From positions 124,001 through 188,000 of the forward strand of contig NZ_JSEH01000007.1 of the NCBI RefSeq assembly GCF_000801335.2: 64,000 bases of DNA, read 5' to 3'. Each line of letters opens with the position of its first letter. Position 1 is the first letter of the stretch. Of the stretch, positions 16,570-47,847 are shown piece after piece. The position numbers and the translations under genes are program-made. Source of the stretch: Desulfovibrio sp. TomC. GTDB lineage: Bacteria > Desulfobacterota > Desulfovibrionia > Desulfovibrionales > Desulfovibrionaceae. The notes under the pieces are model-generated. The model made no database searches, was not told the DNA's origin, and saw only the letters and a program-made list of their open reading frames with translations.

Positions 16570-16805
16570 TTTATTGAACCGGGCTGGCCCATGGCGATAA
16601 GCCGCATGCGGCGCACACGCTGGGTCAAGAGTGGGAACGAGTGCTTCGCCCCGGTCAATGCCCTCCCCTGGATCTTCACCCAGCTGACGCTTGCAGGGCT
16701 TTTCGTCGCGGCGCTGTCGTCTGTTGCGGTGAGACGGAGTCTTCCCTGATGCGGATGGCCTCGGGGGAAAAACCCTTCTCGACCCGACCGGGCAGAGCAG
16801 GAGTG

Positions 16806-17434
16806 TTTCTGATCTGCCTATACGGCAGTGAACATGGAGGCTGCGCCCTGCCTGCGCTGCGAGCATTTTCTGAGCTGTCTACGCGGTAGTAAACCATCCA
16901 CACTCAACAACGCCGGTCCCGCACTTTTCTGAGCTGCCTACGCGGCAGTGAACGCTGCCTAGCTGTCCGGGCGGCCTTTTATTTTTTTCTGAGCTGCCTA
17001 CGCGGCAGTGAACCCGCTGACGAGCTTGGGCCTGACGTCGGGGTATTTCTGAGCTGCCTACGCGGCAGTGAACGCGGCGATGGCGGCTTGCTTGGTCGTC
17101 TCATATTTTCTGAGCTGCCTACGCGGCAGTGAACACACGCCGGCCTCTTGCCACTCGATGGTGTCCTTTCTGAGCTGCCTACGCGGCAGTGAACGCTCAC
17201 CTCTTGCTGCGTCATGCGTTCACTGTTTTCTGAGCTGCCTACGCGGCAGTGAACGTGGTCTGGTGTGGTCTGGTGTGACCACGTCTTTTCTGAGCTGCCT
17301 ACGCGGCAGTGAACACCAGCTCCACCCACACGGTCTACGTGCGCGATTTCTGAGCTGCCTACGCGGCAGTGAACCATCCAGGAGGATATGAGCCACCTCC
17401 GAGCATTTTCTGAGCTGCCTACGCGGCAGTGAAC
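16806..17434 (-). CRISPR. Orphan type I-F CRISPR array: 11 repeats, 10 spacers
   Basis: A 28-bp repeat, read on the minus strand as GTTCACTGCCGCGTAGGCAG followed by CTCAGAAA, recurs every 59-61 bp. Repeat starts on the plus strand are 16806, 16867, 16926, 16986, 17046, 17107, 17167, 17227, 17287, 17347 and 17407. Spacers are 31-33 nt. The sequence matches the I-F repeat consensus closely. The first two copies (16806, 16867) carry substitutions, as expected for the leader-distal end, so the leader should lie right of 17434. That side is occupied by an IS3 remnant, and no cas gene is present in the window. Confidence 0.97.
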
Positions 17435-40208: not shown

Positions 40209-41903
40209 TTACAGACTCTTTGGGCCGGCCGCTGCACTTCCCGGCCCTGCCAGCCAGGAAGGCGCCGGAGCGACAGGGTCTGCCCGCCGGAATTCCCGGT
40301 AATCCAGCCGATATTTCTTCATGCGAAGGCCCATGGTCCGCCGGGTCAGGCCCAGTTCCCGGGCCGCCTCGGTGGTGTTGCCCTGGTGCAGGCGCAAGGC
40401 CTCCACCAGCATCTCGTATTCCACGGCCGCCAGTCTCGCCTCCAGCCCGTCCAGGGCGTCTGGGCCGGAAAAAACCGGCGTTTGCAGCGACAAGGGCAGG
40501 TTATAGCCATGAATGGCCTCGTCCTCGGTCAGAATGACCGCCCGGTGGATGACGTTCTCCAGTTCCCGGACATTGCCCGGCCAGTGGTAGTGCATGAGCA
40601 TATTGATGGCCGGGGTGGTGATCCGCTTGATCACCTTGCCCGTTTCCTCGGCATAGCGGGCGGCAAAGTGCTCGGCCAGGGTGACGATGTCGCTGCCCCG
40701 GTCGCGCAGCGGCGGCACCTGGAGCGGGAAGACATTGAGCCGGAAATAGAGGTCCTGGCGAAATTCGCCCCGTTCGGCCATCTCGGCCAGATTCTTGTTG
40801 GTGGCGGCGATGATGCGGATGTCCACGGTCACGGTCTTGTTGCCGCCCACCCGCTCAAAGGCCCGTTCCTGGAGCACGCGCAGGAGCTTGGCCTGGACCC
40901 CAAGCGACAGTTCGCCCACTTCGTCGAGAAAAATGGTGCCGCCGTCGGCTTCTTCAAAACGGCCCTTGCGCAGCTGGGTGGCCCCGGTAAACGAGCCCTT
41001 CTCATGGCCGAACAGCTCGCTCTCCAGGATGCTTTCCGGCAACGCGGCGCAGTTGAACTTGACCATGGGGCCGTCCGGACGCTGACCGTCGGCATGGATG
41101 GCGTTGGCGATCATTTCCTTGCCCACGCCGCTCTCCCCCAGGAGCAGCACCGTGGTCCGGGTCTTGGCCACCTTGTGCAGCACGGCGAACACCTCCATCA
41201 TGGCCTTGGAGGAGCCGATAAAGGCCGAGGGTTTGAAACGCGCCTGGAGCGCGCCGAGCAGTTCCCGGTGGCGCTCTTCCCACTGCACCTTGTCGACGGT
41301 TTCCACCAGATAGAGTTCCACGGCCTGGGCCAGCATGTAGGAGACGACCACCAGGGCGTTGACGTGTTTGTCGAGCAGCTCGTCGCTGTCGTAGAGCCGC
41401 ACGGCGCTGATGCTGCCGAGCACCTTTTTGCCGCGCAGGATCGGCACGCAGACAAAGGCGTTGTCGCTGTCTTCGGGCCGCGACAGACTGCCGGTGCGGT
41501 TCAAGATAGCCGGCTCCTGGCCGATGCGCCGCACCACGATGGGCCGGGCCTCTTCCACCACCTGGCCGGTGATCCCCTCCCCCGGGAAATAGACGCCCCG
41601 GGCCTGCTCTTCCTCGGTCAGGCCCAGGCTCTTGTGGATGAAGATGTGGCCGGATTGGCGGTGGTGCAGGTTGACCATGGCCCGGGTGACGCCCATGTCC
41701 CGGCGCATGTAGTCAAGCAGAGTATCCAGGGCCAGGGCCAGATCGTTGTGCTCGGAAAGCGCCTTCCCCATCTCGTAGAGCAGCGGCACGATTTTGCCCC
41801 GGCACACCCCGGCGTGACATTCCTTCACCCGGGGATCGCTGTGTTTGCAAGCCCCGGCGTGACATTCCTTGACCGAGGCGCTTTCCCCATACTTCTCGTC
41901 CAT
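40209..41903 (-). CDS. anfA: Sigma-54-dependent activator AnfA of the Fe-only nitrogenase operon
   Basis: The 564-aa product belongs to the NifA/VnfA/AnfA family. An unusual N-terminus carries two copies of VKECHAGxC, giving Cys14-X4-Cys19 and Cys29-X4-Cys34. A GAF domain follows (about 45-195), then AAA+ with Walker A GESGVGKE (256-263), the sigma-54 loop GSFTGA (303-308) and Walker B GGTIFLDE (321-328). A Fis-type helix-turn-helix ([20 protein letters not shown]) lies near the C-terminus. It is divergent from anfH across a 751-bp gap with three GTAC-N6-GTAC sites. VnfA of Azotobacter uses N-terminal cysteines for an Fe-S cluster; a similar sensor role here is inferred. The AnfA call rests on the neighbouring operon. 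Confidence 0.9.
41807..41870 (-). repeat. In-gene 19-bp direct repeat encoding duplicated KECHAG box
   Basis: CCCCGGCGTGACATTCCTT occurs at 41807-41825 and 41852-41870, spaced 45 bp (15 codons). It encodes the duplicated KECHAG box of AnfA. Exact DNA identity suggests a recent in-frame duplication. Confidence 0.9.
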
Positions 41904-42167: not shown

Positions 42168-42181
42168 GTACCGATGGGTAC
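42168..42181. promoter_or_regulatory. Activator-binding palindrome 1 (GTAC-N6-GTAC)
   Basis: GTAC CGATGG GTAC. This is the published recognition pattern of the related activator VnfA in Azotobacter. It lies 265 bp upstream of anfA and 395 bp upstream of the anfH -24/-12 promoter, so it could serve either gene. Confidence 0.75.
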
Positions 42182-42324: not shown

Positions 42325-42338
42325 GTACACCACTGTAC
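42325..42338. promoter_or_regulatory. Activator-binding palindrome 2 (GTAC-N6-GTAC)
   Basis: GTAC ACCACT GTAC, about 240 bp upstream of the sigma-54 promoter of anfH, a normal enhancer distance. Confidence 0.8.
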
Positions 42339-42353
42339 AACCGGCCTGACAAG

Positions 42354-42367
42354 GTACATTTGGGTAC
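42354..42367. promoter_or_regulatory. Activator-binding palindrome 3 (GTAC-N6-GTAC)
   Basis: GTAC ATTTGG GTAC. Its start is 29 bp from that of palindrome 2, close to three helical turns, so both sites would face the same side of the DNA. Two further single GTAC half-sites lie at 42420 and 42450. Confidence 0.8.
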
Positions 42368-42528: not shown

Positions 42529-43482
<954 letters not shown>

Positions 43483-43507: not shown

Positions 43508-43825
43508 ATGAAAATGATCAAGGCGATTGTGCGGCCGGAAGCGGCCGAGACCGTGACCGAAGGGCTGGCCAAGGCGGGCTTTTTCACCATGACCAAAATA
43601 AACGCCTACGGCCGGGGCAAGCAAAAAGGCATCACCATGGGCGATGTCCACTACGACGAGCTGCCCAAGACCATGATCATGATGGTGGTCGAGGACAAAA
43701 ACGTCGCGGAAGTACTCAAGATCATCAAATACAAGGCCTACACCGGCAATTTCGGCGACGGCAAAGTGTTTGTCATGCCCGTGGACTCGGTCTTTACCGT
43801 CCGAACCGGCGTCAGCGGACTGTAG
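43508..43825 (+). CDS. nifI1: Nitrogenase PII-like regulator NifI1
   Basis: The 105-aa GlnB-family protein (MKMIKAIVRPEAAETVTEGL start; T-loop region GRGKQKGITMGDVHYDELPK; C-terminal GDGKVFVMPVDSVFTVRTG) is of the NifI1 subgroup. With NifI2 it binds and inhibits dinitrogenase when ammonium is plentiful, and 2-oxoglutarate relieves this. It starts 25 bp after anfH and precedes nifI2 by 11 bp. Confidence 0.93.
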   Translation: MKMIKAIVRPEAAETVTEGLAKAGFFTMTKINAYGRGKQKGITMGDVHYDELPKTMIMMVVEDKNVAEVLKIIKYKAYTGNFGDGKVFVMPVDSVFTVRTGVSGL

Positions 43826-43836
43826 CGGGAGCCGCC

Positions 43837-44208
43837 ATGAAGGAAATCATCGCCATCATCCGCCCCAAAAAGGTGGGCCAGACCAAGGATGCCCTGGAAA
43901 CACTCGGGTTCCCCAGCTTCATGGCCGTGCGGGTGCTCGGGCGCGGCCACCAGCGCGGCATCGCCGCCGAACTCAACTGCGATCTGCCCCCCGAACTGCA
44001 AGGTCAGGGCAAATCCGGCGGCATGAAATACATCCCCAAACGGATGCTCTCCGTCGTCGTGCCCAGCGCTGACGCCGAGGCCGTGGTCGCAGCCATCATC
44101 AAGGCCAACCAGACCGCCCAGATCGGCGACGGCAAGATCTTTGTCCTGCCCGTGGACGACGCCCTGCGCCTGCGCACCGACGAAACCGGCGACATGGCTG
44201 TGTTGTAG
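43837..44208 (+). CDS. nifI2: Nitrogenase PII-like regulator NifI2
   Basis: The 123-aa GlnB-family protein has the longer T-loop of NifI2 (GRGHQRGIAAELNCDLPPEL and QGQGKSGGMKYIPKR) and the C-terminal GDGKIFVLPVDDALRLRTDE. It partners NifI1 in post-translational control of nitrogenase. The start follows GGGAG. Placement between H and D genes is typical of anaerobes and archaea and absent from Azotobacter anf. Confidence 0.93.
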   Translation: MKEIIAIIRPKKVGQTKDALETLGFPSFMAVRVLGRGHQRGIAAELNCDLPPELQGQGKSGGMKYIPKRMLSVVVPSADAEAVVAAIIKANQTAQIGDGKIFVLPVDDALRLRTDETGDMAVL

Positions 44209-44400: not shown

Positions 44401-45978
<1,578 letters not shown>

Positions 45979-45990
45979 GGGGGGTACGCC

Positions 45991-46341
45991 ATGGATGACT
46001 TGCGAAACGAACGCGTCGAACTGCTCATCGACTACATCATGAAAAAGTGCCTGTGGCAGTTTCACTCCCGGGCCTGGGACCGAAAAGATCAGAACGAAGG
46101 CATTCTGTCCCGGACGCGCCAGATTCTGTGCGGCGAGCACGTTTCTCTGGAAACGCCGGCCGACCGCTGCTTTTGGGTTGACGCCGTGGTGTTGGCCGAA
46201 GCCTACCGGGAGCGCTTTGCCTGGCTTGGCGACATGTCCAAGGAGCAAATCACAGACCTGTTGCAGGCGGTCCACGAGCGCCTGGACTTTCTGACCATCA
46301 CCGGCTCGCTTAACCTTGAACTGACTGACCAGCACTACTAG
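45991..46341 (+). CDS. anfG: Fe-only nitrogenase delta subunit AnfG
   Basis: The 116-aa subunit is found only in V- and Fe-nitrogenases and stabilises the DGK complex. Conserved parts: LIDYIMKKCLWQFHSRAWDR at 13-32, LCGE, DRCFWVDAVVLAEAYRERF and a C-terminal LNLELTDQHY. It starts 12 bp after anfD. Its presence confirms this is not a Mo-nitrogenase. Confidence 0.96.
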   Translation: MDDLRNERVELLIDYIMKKCLWQFHSRAWDRKDQNEGILSRTRQILCGEHVSLETPADRCFWVDAVVLAEAYRERFAWLGDMSKEQITDLLQAVHERLDFLTITGSLNLELTDQHY

Positions 46342-46458
46342 CGTTGCGTTCGATCCTTCCCTGTACGGGCAATCAGGCCGCAACACATTGAAAGTGGCAT
46401 GCATACTCACACATACACAGCAATGGCGTTTGTCAACGCGACACGCGAGGGGCGTATC

Positions 46459-47847
46459 ATGTCTTGCGAATTACAGGAAAAAACGCGGGCCGGCGTCATC
46501 AATCCGATCATGACCTGTCAGCCGGCCGGGGCCCAGTTCGTCAGCATCGGCGTGACAGACTGCATTGGCATCGTCCACGGCGGTCAGGGCTGCGTCATGT
46601 TCGTGCGCCTTTTATTCTCCCAGCACTTCAAGGAGAGCTTTGAACTGGCCTCGTCGTCGGTGCACGAAGACGGCGCGGTGTTCGGGGCCTGCGGCCGGGT
46701 GGAGCAGGCTGTCGACGTCCTTCTCATGCGCTACCCCCACGTCAAGGTGGTGCCGATCATTTCCACCTGTTCAACCGAAGTCATCGGCGATGACATCGAC
46801 GGTGTGGTCACCAAGTTAAACGCCGGTCTGCTCAAGGAAAAATACCCCGACCGCGAGGTCCATCTCATCCCCATCCACACCCCGAGCTTTGTCGGCAGCA
46901 TGGTCACGGGCTACGATCTGGCCCTGCGCGACTTTGTCATGCACTTTGCAAAAAAGACCGAACCAAACGGCAAGCTCAATCTCATCACCGGCTGGGTCAA
47001 CCCGGGCGACGTCACGGCGCTCAAACACCTGCTGGCGGCCATGGACATCGAAGCCACGGTCCTTTTTGAGATCGAAAATTTCGATGCCCCGCTCATGCCC
47101 CACGGCAACCACGTGGCCCACGGCACCACCACCATCGCCGATTTGGCCGGCACGGCCAATGCCCTGGGCACCCTGGCGCTCAATCGCTACGAAGGCGGCA
47201 AGGCCGCAGCCTATCTGGAAAAAGAGTTCGACCTCCCGACCCTTGTCGGCCCAACGCCCATTGGCATCCGAAACACCGACACGTTTCTGGCCAACCTTAA
47301 AAAGCTCACCGGCAAACCCATTCCCGAGTCGCTGGTGCGCGAGCGCGGCATCGCCATCGATGCCCTGACCGATCTCACTCACATGTTTTTCGCCGAGAAG
47401 CGCGTGGCCATCTACGGCAACCCCGATCTGGTCATCGGGCTGGCGGAATTTTGCATCGATCTCGAAATGAAGCCCATGCTGCTCCTGTTAGGCGACGACA
47501 ACCCGGCTTACGTCCGGGACCCCAGGATCAAGGCGCTCCAGGAAAACGTCGATTGGAACATGGAGATCATAACCAACGCCGATTTCTGGGAAATGGAAAA
47601 CCGCATCAAAAACGAGGGACTGGAGCTTGATCTGATCCTTGGCCATTCCAAGGGCCGGTTCATTGCCATCGACCACAACATCCCCATGCTGCGGGTGGGC
47701 TTTCCCACCTACGACCGGGCCGGCATGTACCGCCATCCCGTGGTCGGGTACGCCGGGGCCATCTGGCTGGCCGAGCAGATGGCCAATGTCCTTTTCACGG
47801 ACATGGAGCACAAGCACAACAAGGAATGGATTCTCAACATGTGGTAG
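46459..47847 (+). CDS. anfK: Fe-only nitrogenase beta subunit AnfK
   Basis: The 462-aa beta subunit shares the P-cluster with AnfD. The start at ATG 46459 (MSCELQEKTRAGVINPIMTC) matches the family start and gives exactly the Azotobacter AnfK length; the frame is open to 46399 without similarity. P-cluster cysteines are in PIMTCQPAG, GGQGCVMF and IISTCSTEVIGDD. The C-terminus NKEWILNMW is family-typical. It follows anfG after a 117-bp spacer, longer than usual. Confidence 0.97.
   Translation: MSCELQEKTRAGVINPIMTCQPAGAQFVSIGVTDCIGIVHGGQGCVMFVRLLFSQHFKESFELASSSVHEDGAVFGACGRVEQAVDVLLMRYPHVKVVPIISTCSTEVIGDDIDGVVTKLNAGLLKEKYPDREVHLIPIHTPSFVGSMVTGYDLALRDFVMHFAKKTEPNGKLNLITGWVNPGDVTALKHLLAAMDIEATVLFEIENFDAPLMPHGNHVAHGTTTIADLAGTANALGTLALNRYEGGKAAAYLEKEFDLPTLVGPTPIGIRNTDTFLANLKKLTGKPIPESLVRERGIAIDALTDLTHMFFAEKRVAIYGNPDLVIGLAEFCIDLEMKPMLLLLGDDNPAYVRDPRIKALQENVDWNMEIITNADFWEMENRIKNEGLELDLILGHSKGRFIAIDHNIPMLRVGFPTYDRAGMYRHPVVGYAGAIWLAEQMANVLFTDMEHKHNKEWILNMW

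Follow-up and report, generated by a model that had tools for sequence, protein, structure and literature searches.

A doubled cysteine box at the N-terminus of AnfA in Desulfovibrio sp. TomC is a lineage variant that may ligate an iron-sulfur cluster

Introduction

The nitrogenase regulator AnfA of Desulfovibrio sp. TomC begins with two C-X4-C boxes, which raises the questions of whether the second box is a genuine feature of this kind of protein, how old it is, and whether its cysteines could hold a metal cluster. We addressed these questions in a 64,000-nucleotide stretch of contig NZ_JSEH01000007.1 (the window, numbered from its first letter) and in relatives of the regulator. According to the accessible parts of the source, VnfA and AnfA share conserved N-terminal cysteines and a GAF domain, substitution of these cysteines abrogates activity in vivo, VnfA may hold a [3Fe-4S] cluster and is inhibited by chelators and superoxide generators, and removal of the N-terminal domain frees AnfA from its need for the Fe protein (PMC9542535). 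An earlier note, made from the letters of the window, considered the doubling recent and a four-cysteine or dimer-bridging cluster conceivable; such a cluster is possible.

Results

The gene carrying the two boxes is anfA. It occupies 40209-41903 on the minus strand and encodes 564 residues with the order GAF (residues 54-195, 41319-41744), sigma-54 interaction AAA+ (Sigma54_activat, residues 229-394, 40722-41219) and Fis-type helix-turn-helix (HTH_8, residues 491-531, 40311-40433), all assigned by Pfam on that strand. This order matches that of AnfA from Azotobacter vinelandii and Rhodobacter capsulatus, and a C-X4-C box (C29/C34) stands immediately N-terminal to the GAF domain. Matches to NCBIfam, PADLOC and PDB sequences were mostly due to the common AAA+ or GAF domains. 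On the plus strand, divergent from anfA, lie anfH (42655-43482, from a second methionine that we chose as the start), two genes at 43508-43825 and about 43837-44208, anfD (44416-45978), anfG (45991-46341) and anfK (46399-47847). In seven relatives, anfD lies beside a gene whose product is 88-95% identical to that of anfH. We take the two genes after anfH to encode PII-like proteins from their sequence features and place. The anfD product matched TIGR01861 at 44416-45951 with 1062.6 bits against a cut-off of 873.8, while anfG and anfK were named by place and by conservation in relatives.

The region between anfA and anfH contains three predicted GTAC-N6-GTAC enhancer sites of the VnfA/AnfA type (42168-42181, 42325-42338 and 42354-42367; motif matches, no strand assigned), against 0.14 expected in the window, which holds no others. 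In its accessible text, one source gives GTAC-N6-GTAC as the VnfA binding site, a pattern that includes the TAC-N6-GTA consensus bound by AnfA of A. vinelandii and R. capsulatus (PMC7294313); a second, also available in part, likewise describes sites of this type (PMC9542535). The AnfA consensus is thus present before anfH through the three sites. In four of seven relatives' loci, an exact TAC-N6-GTA occurs in the 700 bp preceding anfH, a count made without a shuffle control. GTAC pairs are generally rare in this 5.07-Mb genome, since GTAC-N6-GTAC occurs at seven places and the reversed control CATG-N6-CATG at 94. The four sites outside the anf region lie at position 64325 of contig C14, 67575 of C18, and 8948 and 52314 of C29. 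A possible sigma-54 promoter of anfH, TGGCACAGTTATGGC, lies at 42576-42590 on the plus strand; its pattern is expected 0.97 times per window by chance, and its placement before anfH is what argues for it.

Domains, an adjoining anfD above the family cut-off and the three sites before anfH together identify the gene as anfA, in agreement with the earlier note. As a NifA, the protein fell below the TIGR01817 cut-off (465.8 against 528.85 bits), although NifA has the same domain order and GAF fold. VnfA, which serves a vanadium nitrogenase, has the motif C-X-C-X4-C before its GAF domain; the window protein, encoded beside iron-only nitrogenase genes, has no C-X-C at its N-terminus, reads C-X4-C-X9-C-X4-C and in this does not fit VnfA.

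The distal box, KEC14HAGAC19, spans residues 12-19 (41847-41870), and the proximal box, KEC29HAGVC34, residues 27-34 (41802-41825), both on the minus strand. They lie 15 residues apart, just as the earlier note described them, with the linker KHSDPRV (41826-41846, minus strand) between them and RGKIV after the proximal box. At the DNA level, the boxes contain an exact 19-bp direct repeat with a 45-bp offset, also on the minus strand (41808-41826 and 41853-41871). The identity that had been reported is exact, whereas the end given for it, 41865, cuts the distal copy short of its true end at 41871. The repeat is beyond chance in the window: when the first 120 nt of the gene were shuffled 2000 times by mononucleotides, no exact repeat exceeded 12 bp, and other exact repeats of at least 15 bp at offsets of 6-99 occurred in the window only within a CRISPR-like array. 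Across the whole genome, the DNA pattern encoding CHAGxC has five matches, of which two are the anfA boxes and only these lie close together; a reversed control pattern has three.

The array just mentioned is a CRISPR array at 16796-17434 with eleven direct repeat copies at a spacing of about 60 bp. Nine copies contain the 28-nt core TTTCTGAGCTGCCTACGCGGCAGTGAAC and the first two are degenerate; the repeat resembles that of type I-F.

To place the boxes among relatives, we searched with the first 234 residues of the window protein through 59 genomes (its own included), 395 of the phylum, 288 of the family, 291 of the order of genome G353 and 141 of the order of genome G211. With the best seven to nine candidates per genome scored, as in the phylum search, at least 24 of the 288 family genomes had a match at E ≤1e-45. 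The order of G353 yielded one match at 1e-43, in G353 itself, and that of G211 yielded six. Matches at E ≤2.5e-49 gave 36 aligned AnfA-like proteins including that of the window, and the next phylum match among those listed was at 1.3e-39. Six rows (L042, L048, L049, L082, L093 and L094) begin without methionine, the other starts are manually chosen methionines, and the counts of upstream cysteines below hinge on these choices. By eye, the weaker NifA-like loci (L050-L070, 21 in all, with L015 and L016) showed no C-X4-C directly before the GAF start. Among plasmids, 11 records matched the N-terminal part of AnfA, none of them listed as AnfA, and 251 matched AnfD, all below 60% identity in both searches.

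A match to anfD above the TIGR01861 cut-off is present in 25 of 28 genomes, the exceptions being G633, G564 and G277, and anfH, anfD, anfG and anfK accompany anfA in seven of 13 fetched neighbourhoods (L097, L099-L102, L107 and L108). No anf genes were found within 8 kb in L098 and L103 or in the fetched 17 kb of L104, a different nitrogenase-like cluster lies in L105 and L106, and L109 contains only an ORF resembling the one after anfK.

The L104 protein (G633) is AnfA-like, 63% identical in its N-terminal part and 81% in its AAA+ part, in a genome without anfD above the cut-off. In L101 (G355) and on contig C36 of G581, a single anf operon is flanked by two anfA-like genes, one with a C14-type tail and one with another tail, and G580 has two anfA-like genes on different contigs. 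Near the nitrogenase-like cluster of L105 (G564) and L106 (G009), which shows 28-35% identity to AnfD and AnfK in its genes, lie the AnfA-like paralogues L086 and L090, in which the GAF stretch GEGITG is altered and which have no upstream cysteine.

C29 and C34 are each present in 35 of the 36 rows, the sole exception being L048, from the genome G277 that has no anfD match above the cut-off. Aligning AnfA N-termini had been proposed as a check on whether one box or two are usual: one is, whereas two complete boxes are unusual (3/36). Related AnfA proteins lacking the boxes entirely, which the same proposal named as evidence against it, did not turn up among the rows other than L048. Such breadth is also what a dimer-bridging cluster would predict, in which only C29 and C34 bind, two per subunit at the paired first GAF helices, and cysteines further upstream are accessory or idle. 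A further cysteine occurs somewhere upstream in 21 rows, at -15, -11, -10 or -9 from the proximal box, and a second one at -19 in L043 and at -23 in L071. The remaining 15 rows have none, and 14 of them carry only the proximal pair, which makes the dimer-bridging cluster the main rival to a ligand role for the whole tail.

C14 is found in nine rows (the window protein, L012, L013, L014, L042, L043, L071, L077 and L088), and C14 with C19, the complete second box, in three, namely the window protein, L012 and L013, all of the window's genus. In the six other C14 proteins the C19 position is G, F, Y, V, R or R. Within the genus (14 genomes), three of five AnfA-like genes found have the complete second box; of the other two, L014 has C14 only and the paralogue L090 has neither cysteine. 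An additional relative, L041 of Desulfovibrio sp. DV, the single one found by a contig scan, has the same N-terminus as L012 and was left out of alignment and tree. Residues before C14 vary among the nine proteins, the spacing from C14 to C34 is constant, a glycine lies three residues after C14 in eight, and the linker keeps D-P at the same place in eight and N-P in L077. From the constant spacing to the proximal box and the retained D-P or N-P, the upstream element reads as an old extension, usually with one cysteine and not a second pair. The distal element reads C-P in five of the nine (L014, L043, L071, L077 and L088), and heme binding at C-P was considered. Elsewhere, C152 in the GAF domain (F-x-C-V-P-I, window 41448-41450) is present in 35 of 36 rows. 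Since L048, which lacks the N-terminal box, has it too, we left C152 out of the motif.

These patterns bear on a neutral reading, in which the distal box is a product of local duplication or slippage and has no ligand role. The restriction of the complete box to 3 of 36 rows and the 19-bp identity in the window gene would suit it, yet the C14 element recurs in nine rows, including L042 of another order, and L012 and L013 keep the box residues while their synonymous sites differ; we regard this reading as very unlikely.

The same synonymous sites date the doubling. In L012 and in L013 the two boxes are identical at 19 of 24 nt, and from the codon usage of nine window ORFs, identical codons for all six shared residues (KECHAG) are expected in about 4% of cases. 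The differences in both of the other double-box genes lead us to reject a recent duplication of the box, contrary to what the repeat had first implied, and the doubling is older than the species; the 19-bp identity in the window gene would then reflect later homogenisation or chance.

A tree of 40 rows (the 36 and four NifA-like outgroups), built with the boxes left out, joined the window gene with L012 (100/99), L013 with L014 (93/93) and all four together (100/99). Both the double box and C14 require two changes on this tree, and forcing the window gene, L012 and L013 together was disfavoured (p 0.026, the group having been defined once the tree was known), which leaves a single origin with loss in L014, or two origins, as the probable histories. 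All three double-box genes use GGG for the distal glycine, a codon that accounts for 16% of the glycine codons of nine window ORFs and also occurs in boxes of other relatives; for the proximal glycine, L012 and L013 have GGC and the window gene GGG. The shared distal GGG, together with the matching proximal GGG and two TGT codons in the window gene, suggests that the double box arose once, was lost in L014 and was later homogenised in the window gene. L042 (neighbourhood L099, genome G353) belongs to another order; its nesting among Desulfovibrionaceae rows in the anfA tree and the full anf operon alongside make horizontal transfer of this anfA likely.

In a structure model of the window protein, a single metal-free chain with an N-terminal tail of low confidence, the GAF part resembles NifA-type GAF folds (matches 4g3v, 8jrc and 4g3k). 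Residues 1-25 have pLDDT <50, the first GAF helix begins at residue 33, and C34 is modelled at its start.

Discussion

Our reading of these data, to which we give about an even chance, is that the N-terminus of AnfA is a tail with a variable set of Fe-S ligands, through which the GAF domain is gated. AnfA would switch on the adjoining iron-only nitrogenase operon through sigma-54 RNA polymerase, and its first 40 or so residues would form a flexible cysteine tail holding an Fe-S cluster close against the beginning of the GAF domain. As long as this cluster is intact, the GAF domain would permit activation; loss or oxidation of the cluster would leave AnfA switched off. C29 and C34 would be the core ligand pair, used family-wide. 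C14 would add a third, which the close clade retains and for which several other proteins have a cysteine at a different spacing, and C19 would be a fourth, limited to the genus, that completes the second box. With four cysteines, a single subunit could hold a [4Fe-4S] cluster with cysteine at every ligand position, unlike the [3Fe-4S] cluster suggested for VnfA. Against a ligand tail count the 14 rows with the proximal pair only, and L014, which belongs to the same four-row clade and has C14 without C19. Since an upstream cysteine is absent from 15 of 36 rows, the third and fourth ligands would be dispensable in the family.

Bridging of two subunits by C29 and C34 draws further on the model, which places this pair where the first GAF helix begins, a helix expected at the dimer interface in NifA-type GAF domains. 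It leaves unexplained the constant spacing and the conservation around C14 in nine proteins, and the VnfA data were reportedly fitted with one cluster per subunit; we consider it doubtful, though a serious competitor. A thiol/disulfide switch, or binding of zinc or another metal, would dispense with the Fe-S cluster altogether, and C-X4-C pairs and four cysteines would suit zinc or disulfides equally well. Against it stand the [3Fe-4S] cluster suggested for VnfA and the inhibition of VnfA by chelators and superoxide generators, as far as the available text goes (PMC9542535), and we judge it unlikely.

The accessible part of the same source reports that VnfA in Escherichia coli is not oxygen-sensitive and that its GAF domain has no major role there except under a strong oxidising agent (PMC9542535); both observations weigh against our reading, and the minor role of the GAF domain counts against a simple redox switch. 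In Rhodopseudomonas palustris, the PII protein appears to act via the GAF domain, according to the part of the report available (PMC12093980).

Compared with known systems, the proximal box sits where the cysteine motif of A. vinelandii AnfA is reported in accessible text (residues 21-26, before a GAF domain at 33-193; PMC7294313). The parallel with the Azotobacter C-X4-C motif drawn in the earlier note holds for the proximal box; the distal element usually contributes one cysteine. The second, upstream C-X4-C sets the window protein apart from the published descriptions of Azotobacter and Rhodobacter AnfA, and no doubled AnfA box was found in the literature searched, with partial coverage of subscription papers. 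Many NifA proteins carry their cysteine motif in the interdomain linker between AAA+ and HTH, as described in the available text (PMC7294313), whereas that of the window AnfA precedes the GAF domain. The chloroplast sensor kinase CSK/Hik2 likewise has a GAF-associated [3Fe-4S] redox sensor in the portion of the source at hand (PMC6949291), but it is a kinase with the cysteine inside the GAF domain and a functional analogue only.

The doubled box is genuine and conserved, and the regulator that carries it is of a known kind; the doubling is a lineage variant that is not recent. A bolder view, which we think rather improbable, is that the regulator family has shifted its cluster among sets of two, three and four tail-cysteine ligands (dimer-bridged, [3Fe-4S]-like and fully ligated [4Fe-4S]) with its fold, operon and role unchanged; single gains and losses of cysteines would then have changed cluster type, and thereby the signal sensed, in anaerobes. 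The enzyme under AnfA control is also capable of reducing CO2, with formate and methane as products, according to the accessible part of PMC12093980. Within this clade, proteins that are otherwise close differ naturally in having two, three or four tail cysteines, a series with which experiments can separate ligand number, cluster type and signal.
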